Shown here: positions 12,358-21,036 of the stretch, piece by piece | Layout of the letters: each line of letters begins with the position of its first letter | How positions within the stretch are numbered: the first letter of the stretch is position 1 | Program-made: the position numbers and the translations under genes | The notes under the pieces: generated by a model | What the model saw: only the letters and a program-made list of their open reading frames with translations | What the model was told of the DNA's origin: nothing | The model's database searches: none | Origin: Gammaproteobacteria bacterium | GTDB taxonomy: Bacteria; Pseudomonadota; Gammaproteobacteria; HK1 | DNA length: 64,000 nucleotides | Direction of reading: 5' to 3' | NCBI GenBank assembly: GCA_022826505.1 | Contig: JAJDUQ010000231.1 | Span: forward strand, 1 to 64,000

Positions 12358-13314
12358 ATGAAGGCCGCCACCCATTCGCGCATCAGGCGTACAGCGGTCG
12401 AGGCCGTGGGCTCTATCCCCGGCATCAAGGCCGTGGTGCTGTACGGGTCGAGGGCGCGCGGGACCGCGCGGGCGGCGAGCGACTGGGACATCGCCATCCT
12501 TTCGCATGCGTCGAGCGAGAACGAGCACGCGGCGAGGAGGCTCTTCGACGAGCTCGAACGGGTCCATCCGATCGTGATGAAGCCGGAGTCGATCGAGACG
12601 CACTGCAATACCGGGACCCGCCTCGAGGCGGCGATCGCGCGCCAGGGACAGTTGCTCGCGGGTGAGTGGATCCCGCCGCGATGCCGCAGCGAGGACCTGG
12701 ACGTGACGGCCGAAGACATCGGAGACAACCTCGACATCGCGACGGGCGACGTGCGCAGCGCGTTCGTCGCCCTGTGCGACACGGCGTTCACGGGCAAGAC
12801 CCATGAGCCCAGAATTGTCGAGTACTCACAGCAGGCCGCGGAAACGCTGGCCAAGACCATCATCGCCGGGTTCGGACTCTCGCCGACGGCGGTGCACGAC
12901 CTGAACGCGCTGGCGACACAGCTCGAGAACGCCTACCGCGGGCGCGCCCGTGGCACCGAGGCGCGACGCCGCTTCGCCGCCGCCATCCGAGCGCTCGACG
13001 GCAACACGAAAGCCGCTCACGAGGCCCGCTACCACAAGGGACCGATCGAGGGACCCGCGCGCACGACCGAGCGCATCGCGAACACACTGCGGCTCCAGAC
13101 CGAATGGCTGCGGTGGTACGCGACCCACGATCCCGATATGCGCGTAGCGGCGGTCGCCGCGGGTCGGGACATCGCGGACGCGGCCGGGCTCACCGAAGGG
13201 ATGCGAGGGTTCGATCGGCTCGCCCCCGACCTTCAGGCCCGGGTCCGGGCGTGGGGGGAGGAAGGCCGGTCGATCGCGGACGCGTTCGTATCCGGAATCG
13301 AGAACCGCACGTAG
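12358..13314 (+). CDS. Nucleotidyltransferase-HEPN fusion protein (MNT-HEPN type)
   Basis: A 318-residue protein. Residues 20-50 carry the minimal nucleotidyltransferase signature: GSRARGTARAASDWDIAIL, with G-S at 30-31 and the D-x-D metal pair in DWD. From about residue 118 it has a HEPN-like helical bundle (EYSQQAAETLAKTIIAGFG, then HDLNALATQLE). In MNT-HEPN toxin-antitoxin systems these two domains usually sit on two adjacent genes; the nucleotidyltransferase AMPylates and silences the HEPN RNase. Here they are one polypeptide. I do not see an unambiguous R-x4-6-H RNase motif, so the HEPN half may be inactive or act as substrate-binding domain (as in kanamycin nucleotidyltransferase-like proteins). 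The start has only a weak ribosome site. Confidence 0.7.
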   Translation: MKAATHSRIRRTAVEAVGSIPGIKAVVLYGSRARGTARAASDWDIAILSHASSENEHAARRLFDELERVHPIVMKPESIETHCNTGTRLEAAIARQGQLLAGEWIPPRCRSEDLDVTAEDIGDNLDIATGDVRSAFVALCDTAFTGKTHEPRIVEYSQQAAETLAKTIIAGFGLSPTAVHDLNALATQLENAYRGRARGTEARRRFAAAIRALDGNTKAAHEARYHKGPIEGPARTTERIANTLRLQTEWLRWYATHDPDMRVAAVAAGRDIADAAGLTEGMRGFDRLAPDLQARVRAWGEEGRSIADAFVSGIENRT

Positions 13315-15352: not shown

Positions 15353-15769
15353 GCGGGACCGGCCAGCTCTCCCCCGGTGCGACGGGCGAATCGAAACTGC
15401 GAAAATGCGTCGTCATTCCGCGAATAGCCTCCTGTCACTATCGCCATCATGTGGACCATTCAGGCTGAGGCGAACCAAGATGCGGAGTGCGCCGTTGATT
15501 CATGTATTGTGTCAACGTGGCCAAGGCAAACATCCCACAAAGGATGTTGCGACACCTGCACGATGCCAAGGCCACTGGCCGGACGCTAACGGCCAAGGCT
15601 TCCAGGCATCGTTGGCATGCCATCCGCTGTGGAGAGGCGAGTCGCTCGGCGCGAGGGATGTCGACTTGGTTTACGTCCTGCAATACCGGCGCTCACGCCC
15701 GACAATTGCGCCGATTTATCGAACGCTGTCCCCATGAGCGGGATTCGACGAGAGATTGAGAGATCGCAA
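15353..15769 (+). other. Intergenic region, island boundary
   Basis: No supported gene. Several open frames of 70-110 codons exist on both strands but lack ribosome sites and resemblance to families. Base composition is visibly less GC-rich than the genes to the left, consistent with a junction to the accessory island that follows. Confidence 0.4.
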
Positions 15770-15895
15770 ATGCCAGTCCATCAGTTCACCTTGATCGTCT
15801 CCGGTCCCGATTTGCAGGAGAAGACGTTGATCGACGCGGTGTTCGAGATCGCGTGTTCCGACCAAACCGGCCCAGAAGCTCTGGCTGGGCTGTGA
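15770..15895 (+). pseudogene. Truncated N-terminus of a small conserved protein
   Basis: An ATG-started frame of 41 codons whose first 30 residues (MPVHQFTLIVSGPDLQEKTL, then IDAVFEIACSD) resemble the N-terminus of a family of small proteins I recall as beginning MPVYxFTLIVxGPDLQ...ALIDALFEAGCDD. Those continue for at least another 40-80 residues, sometimes with a HTH. Here the frame stops soon after the conserved Cys-Ser-Asp and runs into the next gene 7 bases later, so it is most likely the stump of a truncated gene. The resemblance is from memory and not verified. Confidence 0.4.
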
Positions 15896-15902
15896 TGCAA
15901 CG

Positions 15903-17249
15903 ATGACCGGTCGATCCCAGCCTAGGCGCAGCCCGGGAATTCGAAGACCTATCGTCGTCCGGCGGGAGGGAAACCGCCTTCGCTTTGTCGGACGGGTGAA
16001 CGCCCTTGCGCACCGTCAGTTCATGTGGACTCTCCACGAATGCCGCAAGCTCGGCTACCAGGACATCATTCTGGATTTCTCACGGTGCGAGTCGGCATTT
16101 CCAATCGGGATGATTCCGCTGCTTCCGCACACGGACGCGCTTCGACGCGAGGGTGTCGATGTGTCCGTCGAGCTTCCCGGTACCGAACAGCTCGCACGGC
16201 TGTTCCGCAATACCAACTGGGCGCATTTTCTGGAGCCGGAGCGTTATTCGACGAGCGACACGGTGCATGATCGTCACTTGGCGGCTCAGCGTTTCGATGA
16301 CTCCGCCCAGCAGCAACGGCTTGTCAACGAATTCATGGATGTCGTGATGCGCAATTTGACGCTGGAGCGCGATGTCATAGCGGGTCTGGAGTGGTCAATC
16401 AACGAAATCACGGACAACGTGCTCAATCATGCGGAATGCGAAGAAGGCGGAATCGTTCAAGTGAGCACTTTCAGGGAGGCGCGGAAGGTTGCTTTCGGAG
16501 TGGCCGATTCGGGGCAGGGAATCCTGAACTCGCTACGGGAGGGACATCCGAGCCTCCGCAAGGATGCCCAAGCAATCGGTGAGGCGATGAAAGCCGGTGT
16601 GACACGAAATCCCGATGCCGGCCAAGGAAACGGTATCGCAGGCACCTTACGTATTGCAACGATGTCTGGAGGCGCATTCGAAATCACATCAGGACTTGCA
16701 CAGGTTGTCGTTCGGACGGATCCGGCGGACGCACATCCGGATCCTCACTCGGATGCTCAGGTCTACGAAAGAAGGGAGCGACAGAGGCTCCAGGGAACGG
16801 TCGTGTATGCGGAAATCGGTCTTGATGCGAGTTTTCACTTGTCAGATGCGCTTGGATTCTCCGGAGAACCACATCAGCCGGTGGATATCATCGAGTTGCA
16901 GTACGAGACGGAGGGTGGAGACGCCGTGGTGTTGAAACTTCGTGAGGAATCCACAGGGTTCGGATCCAGACCTGCTGGCCGCCAATTGCGCACCAAATGC
17001 ATGAATTTACTGAACGCGGAGCCTTCGAAGCCTCTACTACTGGACTGGACAGCGGTTCCCCTAGTGTCAAGCAGCTTCGCCGACGAGCTTGTCGGTAAGC
17101 TGTTCGCCTCGCTCGGTCCACTTGCGTTCGCCGCGCGGGTGCGTAATGTCGGCATGGAAGCAATGGTCCGCGGCCTCGTTGACAAGGCCATCATGCAGCG
17201 AGCAGCACAAGTGGTCAGTGGTGCAATTGGTGAACGCGACTTCTGCTGA
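15903..17249 (+). CDS. STAS / GHKL-ATPase / DUF4325 (STAS-like) three-domain protein
   Basis: A 448-residue soluble protein with three recognisable parts. Residues about 20-115: a STAS-like fold (DIILDFSRCESAFPIGM). Residues about 135-265: a GHKL (histidine-kinase-like) ATPase with N-box EITDNVLNH (168-176), G1 box DSGQG (202-206) and G2 box GQGNGIAG (240-247). Residues about 300-440: a DUF4325-like STAS domain (LLDWTAVPLVSSSFADELVGKLF). There is no His phosphoacceptor domain, so it is like an anti-sigma/SpoIIAB-type switch rather than a sensor kinase. It starts 7 bp after a truncated small gene and ends 33 bp from the convergent PD-(D/E)XK gene. Role unknown; its position suggests involvement with the R-M locus. 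Confidence 0.72.
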   Translation: MTGRSQPRRSPGIRRPIVVRREGNRLRFVGRVNALAHRQFMWTLHECRKLGYQDIILDFSRCESAFPIGMIPLLPHTDALRREGVDVSVELPGTEQLARLFRNTNWAHFLEPERYSTSDTVHDRHLAAQRFDDSAQQQRLVNEFMDVVMRNLTLERDVIAGLEWSINEITDNVLNHAECEEGGIVQVSTFREARKVAFGVADSGQGILNSLREGHPSLRKDAQAIGEAMKAGVTRNPDAGQGNGIAGTLRIATMSGGAFEITSGLAQVVVRTDPADAHPDPHSDAQVYERRERQRLQGTVVYAEIGLDASFHLSDALGFSGEPHQPVDIIELQYETEGGDAVVLKLREESTGFGSRPAGRQLRTKCMNLLNAEPSKPLLLDWTAVPLVSSSFADELVGKLFASLGPLAFAARVRNVGMEAMVRGLVDKAIMQRAAQVVSGAIGERDFC

Positions 17250-17282
17250 GGCGGCGGAGAATCTTCCCCGTCGATTAGCATC

Positions 17283-18218
17283 CTACGCGAGTCGATCGAC
17301 GATTCGGGAGATCGCTTCGACCACATCGGCCGCTGCCTCCCTGTTCAGCCCGCTCTGTCTCAGGTCTCGTGCCAAGTGACCGAGAATCTCCGCGGGATCT
17401 TTCGCTTCCGCGTGCCGTTTGAAGAACAATATCCAGTGATCGGCCGGAATACCGGCAATCCGCTGCGTCCGCAATGACGAAGTGTAGTCGTCCATGAGAC
17501 CCGCAAGTCGTGCCACCCGACCGAAGTTGTTCCCTCCATCCTTGACCGGCCGGTCTGCGATTCTCGTCTTCGGCGCCGGGTAAGGGCCTACCTCCTCGTC
17601 CAGAGGATTCACCTGCCGCTGGTCCGAGGTGTCGCTCGTCTCCCTAGCGTTCGTCCACCACCAATTGCGGAATTCGGCGACATAGCGAGCCTGTTCGATA
17701 TAGGGCTCGTAGACAACAGGCTCACCCGAAAGAACGTTCTTGAGGTGCCAGGGTACGACCACCAGCAGATCCTGCGGGGCACACGCGGTTGGCGTGACGG
17801 TGTACCTGAAGCTCGGCTCCCTCTCCCGGGAGAGCAGGTACCACCCCTTGAGCTCGATTCCGAGGGCGATCTCTACGGTTCCATCCTGGCCGTGAGCCAG
17901 CAATCTTACGTCCGGAAAGGTCTGTGCCGAACGCACGAATCGGTGCCGAGGCCAGCGATCGTCGGGGTCCCACACCTCCCGGATTCGATTGAGGGTTTCG
18001 ACGACCTGTACTTCGATCGCGCTGCCCAGAACCGCGCTGAGATTGAATAGTTCACCACCGTCGAGACCTTCGATGCGAGTCGCGGTTCGGAAGTAGACCG
18101 GAAGAGCACTGATCGCATCCCTCACATTGCTGACGAGTGTTCCCAGATTGTCCCCTTCGGGAAACACATGTCTCCGCGGCGGTCGTCGCGATGGTGGCTT
18201 CGATCTCCTACGCTTCAC
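17283..18218 (-). CDS. Predicted PD-(D/E)XK restriction endonuclease
   Basis: A 311-residue protein transcribed 60 bp downstream of a DNA methyltransferase gene on the same strand. The nuclease signature is FPDVRLLAH (P102, D103) and, 18 residues on, GIELKGW (E122-x-K124), the classic PD...(D/E)xK spacing. It is followed by a conserved-looking stretch CAPQDLLVVVPWHL and YEPYIEQARYVAEFRNWWW. It would cut DNA at sites left unmethylated by the neighbouring enzyme; no recognition sequence can be read. The start is the GTG at 18218, about 7 bases after GAAGGGGAC. A second GTG lies in the repeat at 18168. Confidence 0.72.
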   Translation of the reverse strand: MKRRRSKPPSRRPPRRHVFPEGDNLGTLVSNVRDAISALPVYFRTATRIEGLDGGELFNLSAVLGSAIEVQVVETLNRIREVWDPDDRWPRHRFVRSAQTFPDVRLLAHGQDGTVEIALGIELKGWYLLSREREPSFRYTVTPTACAPQDLLVVVPWHLKNVLSGEPVVYEPYIEQARYVAEFRNWWWTNARETSDTSDQRQVNPLDEEVGPYPAPKTRIADRPVKDGGNNFGRVARLAGLMDDYTSSLRTQRIAGIPADHWILFFKRHAEAKDPAEILGHLARDLRQSGLNREAAADVVEAISRIVDRLA

Positions 18219-18254
18219 AGATCGTCCCCTTCGGGAAATACATGTCGCTGCGGC
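18145..18254. repeat. Imperfect 36-bp direct repeat at the restriction gene start
   Basis: Copies at 18145-18180 and 18219-18254, 74 bp apart, share the core tccccttcgggaaa and differ at only a handful of positions. The distal copy supplies the GAAGGGGAC ribosome site for the restriction gene; the proximal copy encodes its residues HVFPEGDNL. In the same frame the distal copy would read HVFPEGDDL and then stop. This looks like a local duplication of the gene start, or a pair of protein-binding boxes in the methyltransferase-endonuclease gap. Confidence 0.65.
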
Positions 18255-18278
18255 TGTCCGGCATCCATCGGCGTGACG

Positions 18279-19310
18279 TCACATCCGCAACGGCAACTGA
18301 TCACCTGCGAACCGGCCGGCGAGCCGCTGTTTCGCTAACGACGAAAAGAACGGATCCGGCTCGGCGGCAAAGGCATTCCGGCCCATCTCCACGGCAACGA
18401 CCGACGCGGTACACAGCCCCCCGAACGGCTCCCAGATCGTATCCCCTTCGTTCGAGGCCGCCTTGACGATGCGGCGCATGAACTCCAGCGGTTTCTGATT
18501 CAGGTGCGCAGTCGCGTTCCTTCCAGGGTTGTGCACCCGCGGAGCAACGCGACGGCCATTGCCCCGGTAGCGTTCCGCACCGTTGAGCGGTGGATGCGAC
18601 CAGACATTCGTCAGACCGTGCTCGTGGTGCCATGGATGGCGGAGCCGCGCCCACTGCTTTGGCGTAACGGGGCGTTGGCCGTCAATCGAGTAATAGGGAC
18701 GTCCTGCGGGTTCACCTTGGTCGTTCGCGTAGGCGACGAGCCTGCCCATCATCTCCGCCGGCGGGAAGTACCAGAGCCAGTCCTGGGTGAGGTACTTGCG
18801 AGTGGCGGCGTTCTTCACCCCGCACGCCTCGTTGGCGCGATACAGCGGCATTCCGGTCCGTTGCCATTCCGCGCGCAGCCACTGGCAGGCGGACATCGTG
18901 CCGCTTGGGGTCGTGAACGCAAGCCGTCGCCGGTAGAACGCGCAGACCTCGGTCACAGTCGGCAACCGGCGGATTGTGTCTCCGTTCACGTTGCCGGCGA
19001 TGTGGCTAATCCCCTTGTCCCACAGAATCGTCTGTACGTACTCCCAACCTTCCCGCGCCAGAAGGGGATGCACGGTTGCCCAGCCGATCTCGGTGTTCCA
19101 GAACCAAAGCGTCGTGGCCGGGTGTGCGTGCTTCGACCATGCAACGACGTGTTCGGCGTACCACTCTTCCAGTCCTTCCGGGGTTCGGGGGTCGCCCGGG
19201 AACCCGCCCACACCATATGCACCGTCGGACACGATCAGATCCGGGGATTCCCATTCGCCGTAGGCCTCCTCGGCCGGACCCCGATACAATTTGCCACGCC
19301 CCTTCAACAC
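18279..19310 (-). CDS. DNA methyltransferase (N4-cytosine/N6-adenine type)
   Basis: An amino-methyltransferase of the N4/N6 DNA methylase class using S-adenosylmethionine. The catalytic motif IV is SDGAYGVGGFPGDP, in place of the common (D/N/S)PP(Y/F). The SAM-binding part is C-terminal: LNQKPLEFMRRIVKAA, then DTIWEPFGGLCTASVVAVEMGRNAFAAEPD, equivalent to the D-P-F-x-G-x-G-T pattern. This motif order is the beta-class permutation. I choose the GTG at 19310; the frame is open to a GTG at 19442, but that extension reads like noncoding sequence. It lies upstream of the PD-(D/E)XK gene: together a probable type II R-M pair. Confidence 0.82.
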   Translation of the reverse strand: MLKGRGKLYRGPAEEAYGEWESPDLIVSDGAYGVGGFPGDPRTPEGLEEWYAEHVVAWSKHAHPATTLWFWNTEIGWATVHPLLAREGWEYVQTILWDKGISHIAGNVNGDTIRRLPTVTEVCAFYRRRLAFTTPSGTMSACQWLRAEWQRTGMPLYRANEACGVKNAATRKYLTQDWLWYFPPAEMMGRLVAYANDQGEPAGRPYYSIDGQRPVTPKQWARLRHPWHHEHGLTNVWSHPPLNGAERYRGNGRRVAPRVHNPGRNATAHLNQKPLEFMRRIVKAASNEGDTIWEPFGGLCTASVVAVEMGRNAFAAEPDPFFSSLAKQRLAGRFAGDQLPLRM

Positions 19311-19708: not shown

Positions 19709-19725
19709 CGTTTTGGAGACGCAAG

Positions 19726-19962
19726 ATGGTGCGAACGCAAATCTATCTGACCGAGCGTCAGCTTGACGAGCTTGCCGCCATCGCCAGGCAGCGCAGCACT
19801 CGGCAAAGCGAGGTGATCCCCGAGGCCGTCGACCGCTTCATCGAGTAGCGAAGCCGTCAGGGCCGAGAACACACCTTGCGCGAGACCGCCGGGATCTGGA
19901 GCGATCGACCCGACGCCCCCGACAACGAGGCGATTCGAGGGGCATGGGAGCAAGGCTGGGTC
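19726..19962 (+). pseudogene. VapB-like ribbon-helix-helix antitoxin, broken by an in-frame TAG
   Basis: The ATG at 19726 opens a typical antitoxin (MVRTQIYLTERQLDELAAIA...SEVIPEAVDRFIE), but a TAG at 19846-19848 stops it after 40 residues. The same frame then continues without another stop: RSRQGREHTLRETAGIWSDR, then NEAIRGAWEQGW. This matches the C-terminal toxin-binding tail I know from this antitoxin family. A C-to-T change of a CAG codon would explain the stop. The DNA-binding half could still be made, so autoregulation may survive while toxin neutralisation would not. Confidence 0.78.
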
Positions 19963-20355
19963 GTGCCGAAGCCCGTCCTGGTCGACACCGACGTTCTGAT
20001 CGACTTCCTGCGCGGACACGAGCAGGGCGTGTTCTTCGTCAACCTTGCGTCGGATCGGATCATCCTCTTGTCCATCGTCGTCGCGGAGTTGTACGCAGGG
20101 GTAAGGGGCGGAGAGGGCGACTCGGAACAACGCACGCTGGACAGATTTCTGTCGTAGTTCCGCATCGTTCACGTCACCGCCGGGACTGCGAGACTCGGTG
20201 GGCTCTACAAGCGCGACTATGGAAAGTCGCACGGGATCAGCCTTGCGGATGCAGTCGTGGCGGCGACCACGACCCTGGAGAATGCGGATATGAAGACGCT
20301 CAACGTCAAGCACTACCCCATGTTCAACGCGCTGGAACCGGCCTATCGGAAGTGA
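19963..20355 (+). pseudogene. VapC PIN-domain toxin, broken by an in-frame TAG
   Basis: From a GTG at 19963 the frame gives VDTDVLIDFLRG (first PIN Asp) and SIVVAELYAGVRGGEG (PIN Glu), then a TAG at 20155-20157. It resumes in the same frame as FRIVHVTAG and then KSHGISLADAVVAATT (third PIN Asp), ending at a TGA at 20353-20355. Total length is 130 residues, normal for VapC. With the amber codon the RNase would lack its third acidic residue and be inactive. Toxin and antitoxin are fused in one frame without an intervening native stop. Confidence 0.78.
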
Positions 20356-20391
20356 CCTGAAGCGCAATCAGTCATCCCGTAGCGCAAGCCC

Positions 20392-20640: not shown

Positions 20641-21036
20641 TCAACGGCTGGGCAGCACTTCGACGTCCCGGCACCGCAGCAACCGCGCGTCCGCCGTCAC
20701 CAGCGTCAGGTCGTGTACCTTGGCGGTGGCGACGATGAACCGATCCGCGGGGTCCTGGTACGCGGCATCAACGGTGCGGCTGGTGAGCGCGACATCCATC
20801 GTGAGCGGAGCCTCTGCGACAGGGGCAATCGACATCGCCTTGCGAACCCAGCGATGGGGGTCGGGGTCGAGCGCCACCCGGCCACGCTCGGCAAGAAGCA
20901 GCGCTTCCCACACGTTGATCGGGGAGAGATGGAACTCATCCTCCCGGGACCGCAGCGCATGCATCGCGGAATCGCCAATCCGGTCCGGATCGAGGAGACT
21001 CCAAAGCCAGATGTGCGTATCGAGCAGAAACCCCAT
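20641..21036 (-). CDS. PIN-domain RNase toxin (VapC family)
   Basis: A 131-residue PIN-domain protein with the acidic residues in place: MGFLLDTHIWLWSL (Asp6), INVWEALLLAERG (Glu near 44) and QDPADRFIVATA (Asp pair near 97). Such toxins cleave tRNA or rRNA when free of antitoxin. Its ATG follows the antitoxin stop codon directly (TAG then ATG), so the two are translationally coupled. This pair is intact, unlike the vapBC locus 300 bp away. Confidence 0.88.
   Translation of the reverse strand: MGFLLDTHIWLWSLLDPDRIGDSAMHALRSREDEFHLSPINVWEALLLAERGRVALDPDPHRWVRKAMSIAPVAEAPLTMDVALTSRTVDAAYQDPADRFIVATAKVHDLTLVTADARLLRCRDVEVLPSR

Follow-up and report, generated by a model that had tools for sequence, protein, structure and literature searches.

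A STAS-GHKL-DUF4325 protein next to a type II restriction-modification pair as a probable one-chain counterpart of the CapK/CapS and VapK/VapS switches

In the 64,000-nucleotide stretch analyzed here (the window; positions 1 to 64,000 of contig JAJDUQ010000231.1, assembly GCA_022826505.1, from a Gammaproteobacteria bacterium), a plus-strand gene encodes a protein with a STAS domain, a GHKL kinase domain, and a DUF4325 domain. It runs tail to tail with the gene of a probable restriction endonuclease, which is preceded on the minus strand by the gene of its presumed methylase partner. Rechecking of coordinates and strands confirmed this layout and the 33 bp between the two stop codons, as described in an earlier note on this DNA, which had proposed a three-gene system in which the ATPase controls restriction. 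The locus raises the question of whether the protein is there to control its neighbors or is a switch in its own right. Our results favor, with moderate confidence, a self-contained kinase-substrate switch on one chain, a fused counterpart of CapK/CapS and VapK/VapS. Motif conservation, a structure model, two-gene equivalents, and the predicted alignment of the VapS phospho-serine with a conserved serine triplet (SSS) support this reading.

In the 448-amino-acid (aa) protein, Pfam recognized HATPase_c_2 (E 5e-6; 27.0 bits, slightly below the curated cut-off of 27.4) and DUF4325 (E 1.2e-5, above the cut-off). Pfam gave no match for the N-terminal STAS domain, whose profile matches are TM1442 (8e-4) and SpoIIAA. 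An AlphaFold2 (AF2) model of the protein reached a predicted local distance difference test score (pLDDT) of 88.8 and a predicted TM-score (pTM) of 0.86. When this model was compared by Foldseek, the middle domain matched SpoIIAB (1tid_C, TM-score 0.71 by target length) and the STAS part matched RsbV, TM1442, MlaB, and SpoIIAA. The two STAS-like domains around an anti-sigma-type ATPase that the earlier note had read from the sequence are thus borne out. Across 25 fused members of the family, E168, N172, D202-x-x-x-G206, and G242-x-G244 are invariant, as is the DUF4325 motif S389-S390-S391-x-x-D-E. The six GHKL residues (E168, N172, D202, G206, G242, and G244) are additionally kept in kinases encoded separately from DUF4325. 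Because a proline (P67) occupies the canonical phospho-serine position of the N-terminal STAS domain, this domain probably serves as a sensor or dimer domain and not as the substrate.

The candidate substrate is DUF4325. Among PDB entries, the family profile matches VapS of Escherichia best (9z7o_A, E 7e-4); the match falls on the DUF4325 part and aligns the VapS phospho-serine S48 to S390. This alignment assumes that a tag shifts the chain numbering by 18 residues relative to the paper, as deduced from the lengths of 134 and 116. Kinase activity of the window protein and an acceptor serine within the triplet may be presumed on these grounds. As the position of S390 is Q or H in some split partners, the acceptor could be either S390 or S391.

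Two-gene equivalents are in line with this assignment. A scan of 84,980 species genomes yielded 22 relatives of the kinase with 35-69% identity, found in Bacteroidota, Acidobacteriota, Nitrospirota, Pseudomonadota, Firmicutes, and others; the addition of viral contigs, plasmids, and further genomes brought the full set to 33 loci. In whole-genome sampling, at most about 0.5-1% of genomes contained a family match. Split forms consist of a kinase gene of 297-344 aa followed by a DUF4325-type gene of 90-124 aa, and occur on a Pseudomonas plasmid (344 + 103 aa), in Marinitoga phage MPV1 (321 + 124 aa, the second gene annotated as ‘anti-sigma factor’), on an Alicyclobacillus plasmid, and in a Clostridioides phage. 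In Francisella phage KIRK, a 293-aa hypothetical gene is followed by a 112-aa DUF4325 gene (PMC7924643); by gene order and annotation, this pair is a further two-gene equivalent. The occurrence of the same domain pair in split and fused form suggests that the kinase and DUF4325 act on each other. Two PHROGs families annotated as ‘unknown function’ also belong here: phrog_3364 (kinase-only, 304 positions) hits the STAS-GHKL portion in each of the six members tested, and the longer phrog_5816 (441 positions) matches part of five of these six.

In the CapK+CapS and VapKSC systems, a STAS-GHKL kinase acts on a second protein of the STAS type by phosphorylating one of its serines; the CapK kinase is activated by single-stranded DNA (ssDNA), and upon phosphorylation CapS releases its promoter and VapS releases the VapC toxin, VapKSC conferring a phage protection of about 2-log (Chambers et al., EMBO J 2026, PMC13373217). 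The window protein shares with CapK+CapS the combination of a STAS-GHKL kinase and a STAS substrate, and the N-box, G1, and G2 motifs of its kinase are intact. However, CapK carries an N-terminal helix-turn-helix (HTH) and CapS, encoded by a second gene, a winged HTH (wHTH), whereas the window protein is a single chain in which neither was recognized by Pfam or in the AF2 model, and a separate STAS-wHTH repressor gene is missing. CapK+CapS is also linked to immune operons, while the family of the window protein has no fixed downstream operon. VapK is more alike in being a STAS-GHKL protein without HTH, and VapS is a single STAS domain with a tail. At the sequence level, the window protein likewise appears to combine a STAS-GHKL kinase with a STAS substrate that has a conserved Ser/Thr at the phospho-site. 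We nevertheless rejected membership in VapKSC, which comprises three genes including a VapC/PIN toxin, because kinase and STAS substrate are fused here and PIN genes are not conserved nearby (within 10 kb in one of 21 relatives from the genome collection, and additionally at locus L107 and in the window). SpoIIAB/SpoIIAA and RsbW/RsbV, each a GHKL serine kinase with a STAS phospho-acceptor, have folds and motifs in common with the window protein, but they are separate chains that act on a sigma factor and are not known as mobile cargo. No relatives of VapS turned up when plasmids and viral contigs were searched. Our literature search found no publication on the fused STAS-GHKL-DUF4325 form, and in the texts searched DUF4325 was mentioned by only two papers. 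The earlier claim of an undescribed system has to be qualified, since the split CapKS and VapKSC pairs were described in 2026; the fused kinase-substrate form is probably a one-chain variant of these switches.

By analogy to these systems, a signal of infection or DNA damage, possibly ssDNA held between the N-terminal STAS and GHKL domains, would turn the kinase on. The kinase would then phosphorylate a serine in the SSS loop of DUF4325 in the same chain, and phosphorylated DUF4325 might alter dimer or partner contacts and in this way control an effector. Several observations weigh against such a switch. The VapS match is remote, and certain split homologues have Q or H at the S390 position and keep S391 alone. 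The nearly invariant W106 has no established equivalence to the ssDNA-contacting residues W68 of CapK and F54 of VapK, and the neighborhoods of family members revealed neither a conserved effector gene nor a wHTH or PIN partner. If the reading is correct, the kinase and target genes of a newly found immune switch are joined in one portable protein, which would provide a single-chain system for studying the signal and phospho-switch of CapK/VapK-type regulation and proposes a testable function for phrog_3364 and phrog_5816.

The genomic contexts of the family bear on all remaining explanations. Neighbor clustering of 25 loci revealed no common partner, as recurring pairs were due to chance or shared lineage. 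The majority of copies stand alone, some of them as cargo of phages and others inserted among housekeeping genes; homologues in unrelated neighborhoods without restriction-modification (R-M) genes, which the earlier note had named as speaking against its proposal, are therefore the rule. Our initial reading of the neighborhoods was mostly non-R-M, and the link to R-M was partly restored by two later loci (L057 and L107). Overall, R-M genes or their remnants are immediate neighbors in 5 of 33 loci, the window counted. The kinase gene lies between type III Res and Mod genes at L037 (Res assigned by eye), and 185 bp after HsdR at L042, where the type I locus is extended and also includes HsdS, a PsyrT/DpdF-type helicase, and a DprA-like gene. 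At L107, it is preceded by a C-terminal remnant of HsdR and by a DUF4411 PIN gene. At L057 (4280-5599), the family member is the X of an hsdR-X-hsdM-hsdS arrangement, with reading-frame overlaps of 11 and 14 nt (a short hsdS piece was assigned by eye); the L057 record, MT837999, is labelled as phage, and the stretch resembles a bacterial R-M locus.

These loci allow for a broader role, in which the fused protein would be a plug-in regulator of restriction in general, inserted at type I, II, and III loci. It would respond to ssDNA or DNA damage by raising or lowering restriction (or a backup defense), and in hsdR-X-hsdM-hsdS it would act on the restriction complex itself. We regard this as possible, if doubtful. 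Control of restriction in some loci, above all in the type I operon of L057, is a possibility, and the presence of the gene in R-M operons makes restriction control under DNA damage directly testable. The link between kinase and R-M assumed in the earlier note thus survives as a recurrence beside type I and type III genes, and not as a fixed system with the endonuclease and methylase families of the window.

A second alternative, which we consider unlikely, is that the protein works on its own as an anti-phage or superinfection-exclusion factor that phages carry as cargo, and that its R-M and Gabija neighbors merely reflect defense islands. The gene stands alone in a Clostridium-type prophage (L116) and in phage contigs L053-L056, where it occupies positions at which accessory genes are typically found, and other solo copies are inserted between housekeeping genes (ATP synthase, uvrB, aconitase-like, and propionyl-CoA carboxylase-like genes). 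In addition, copies lie upstream of Gabija (L034) or adjoin genes for a KAP/PifA protein (L033), an FRG-type protein (L038), and RhuM and AbiE (L108). In a test of neighbors for defense genes, strong dedicated matches were obtained beside L034, L042, L037, and L033 and a weaker one beside L038, compared to generic defense matches in 2 of 20 control open reading frames (ORFs) from the same contigs; a few neighbors were hand-picked, among them the L037 Mod and the extra genes of L031, L034, and L042. This enrichment is suggestive and not significant, and it argues for the stand-alone factor to that extent only. Moreover, the protein has no recognized effector domain, and its known relatives work via a separate effector. 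Among the solo copies, those in Hyphomicrobium (L043, 2170-3462) and Bradyrhizobium (L044, 8010-9278) occupy the same position by the propionyl-CoA carboxylase-like gene, possibly a shared insertion site. At L117 (6736-9029), a fic-like gene (by eye) overlaps the start of the family member by 10 bp, and the wider match to this copy contains one internal TAA.

The three-gene system of the earlier note, with the window protein as dedicated controller of the neighboring endonuclease and methylase, appears improbable. Its basis is the convergent neighbor at short distance, the embedding of relatives in R-M loci (most strikingly L057, but also L037 and L042), and the finding that capKS loci lie directly downstream of R-M systems in 88 of 443 cases, about 20% (PMC13373217). 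However, related methylase-nuclease pairs travel without the kinase. Such pairs, with the methylase followed by the nuclease (nuclease ~40-49% and methylase ~47-63% identical), were found in nine plasmid records, seven IMG/VR contigs (L058-L064, of which L061 and L064 are near-identical), and one other genome (L003); for six of the plasmid records, each gene was inspected individually (Rhodococcus, Cutibacterium, Gordonia, Micrococcus, Cupriavidus, and an uncultured plasmid). The kinase gene was present in none of 14 other plasmid, phage, or genome loci carrying both pair genes, nor was it found at L011, where a relative of the nuclease stands alone without methylase partner. Conversely, reciprocal tblastn found the same pair at none of the kinase loci tested apart from the window's own genome, and among 21 genomes an N6/N4-methylase lies within 8 kb of the kinase only at L037. 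The recurrence beside the same enzyme families that the earlier note had asked about did not materialize in either direction. The closest relatives of the window protein (58-69% identity) have type III R-M, ATP synthase genes, or further genes of housekeeping function as neighbors.

Base composition points in the same direction. The G+C content at third codon positions (GC3) is 62% in the kinase, 69% in the nuclease, and 77% in the methylase gene, compared to 91-93% in two flanking genes, so that all three genes look foreign, the kinase gene most of all. Convergent transcription and the differing GC3 favor separate arrival of the kinase gene and the R-M pair and speak against a three-gene unit. 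The kinase gene may hence be seen as a mobile cassette of phages, defense loci, and R-M loci that in the window would have landed beside an independent two-gene type II R-M system; the adjacency is probably an accident of a defense-rich locus. A scan for promoters and terminators gave nothing above shuffled sequence.

The remaining explanation is an ordinary stress-response anti-sigma or antagonist module like RsbW/SpoIIAB, with a sigma factor of the host as its target. It fits the Foldseek proximity of the GHKL fold to SpoIIAB and of the STAS domain to RsbV and SpoIIAA but is very improbable, given that no adjacent sigma factor gene was recognized in the neighborhoods read, that patchy distribution, cross-phylum scatter, and phage carriage are unlike a housekeeping regulator, and that the best DUF4325 match is VapS.

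The minus-strand pair is, as judged from homology and gene order, a stable two-gene type II R-M system of mobile elements. Its adjacent methylase and endonuclease genes have the layout of a type II system, and this pairing is kept at 14 other loci as a two-gene operon on plasmids and phages that does not include the kinase. The methylase matches PF01555 (N6_N4_Mtase, E 2.4e-13); its ORF is open to 19442, and we preferred the GTG start given in Table 1 because homologue matches begin just inside it. The endonuclease has no Pfam match and a weak PADLOC match (REase_II, 1.6e-5). Its motif residues E69, P102-D103, and E122-x-K124 do not vary among 10 homologues, which together with the kept pair sustains the earlier assignment as a probable restriction endonuclease, while its AF2 model (pLDDT 59) is too weak to support the proposed PD-(D/E)XK fold. 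On contig L059 (2755-4843), the same pair is located between genes that read like phage terminase and portal.

Table 1 Features of the kinase-DUF4325 gene and of the adjacent R-M pair in the window
Feature	Positions	Strand	Basis or remark
STAS-GHKL-DUF4325 protein, 448 aa	15903-17249	+	one-chain kinase plus STAS-like domain
N-terminal STAS domain, ~residues 18-112	15954-16238	+	TM1442/SpoIIAA profile match; AF2/Foldseek
GHKL kinase domain, SpoIIAB-like, ~residues 125-306	16275-16820	+	Pfam HATPase_c_2; AF2/Foldseek
N-box E168-x-x-x-N172	16404-16418	+	in serine kinases of the SpoIIAB type, the catalytic Glu and the Asn that binds Mg
DUF4325 STAS-like domain, ~residues 340-440, proposed phospho-acceptor	16920-17222	+	PF14213; VapS 9z7o_A match
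S389-S390-S391	17067-17075	+	invariant in fused members; VapS S48 aligns with S390
Probable type II restriction endonuclease, 311 aa	17283-18218	-	motif E69 / P102-D103 / E122-x-K124; homologues
N6/N4 DNA methylase, 343 aa from GTG 19310	18279-19310	-	PF01555; motif IV SDGAYG, motif I EPFGG

A match of the kinase protein to the DISARM component DrmA (PADLOC PDLC02567, 7e-37) was rejected, as it lies on the N-terminal extension of the model, outside the superfamily 2 (SF2) helicase region. It covers profile positions 109-396, compared to ~637-1750 for the helicase region, and true DrmA matches start at ~637-754 or later. Since the N-terminal part of this profile (positions ~25-396 of 1750) matches STAS-GHKL-DUF4325 proteins, family members can be mislabelled as DrmA. 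The composition of the profile also suggests that proteins fused to a DrmA helicase may exist; none was found in 299 genomes. Outside the window, the same genome contains DrmA-like helicase matches at G000:C197:30733-33537 and G000:C281:19053-21431, one of them with an internal TGA.

Further genes of the window resemble toxin-antitoxin components. An ORF without Pfam, NCBIfam, or PADLOC match (15617-15895) stops 7 bp ahead of the kinase gene, and its final 41 residues, which may be a remnant, look like the beginning of a small antitoxin-like protein that is cut short. Beyond the R-M pair as seen from the kinase gene, a ribbon-helix-helix-like antitoxin (by eye) is followed by an apparently frameshifted or truncated PIN toxin (19720-20360), which covers only 1-55 of 120 PIN profile positions, and a second PIN-domain gene of the VapC type lies at 20641-21036 on the minus strand. 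On the other side, at 12358-13314, a single protein combines nucleotidyltransferase and HEPN domains, like a fused MNT-HEPN toxin-antitoxin pair.

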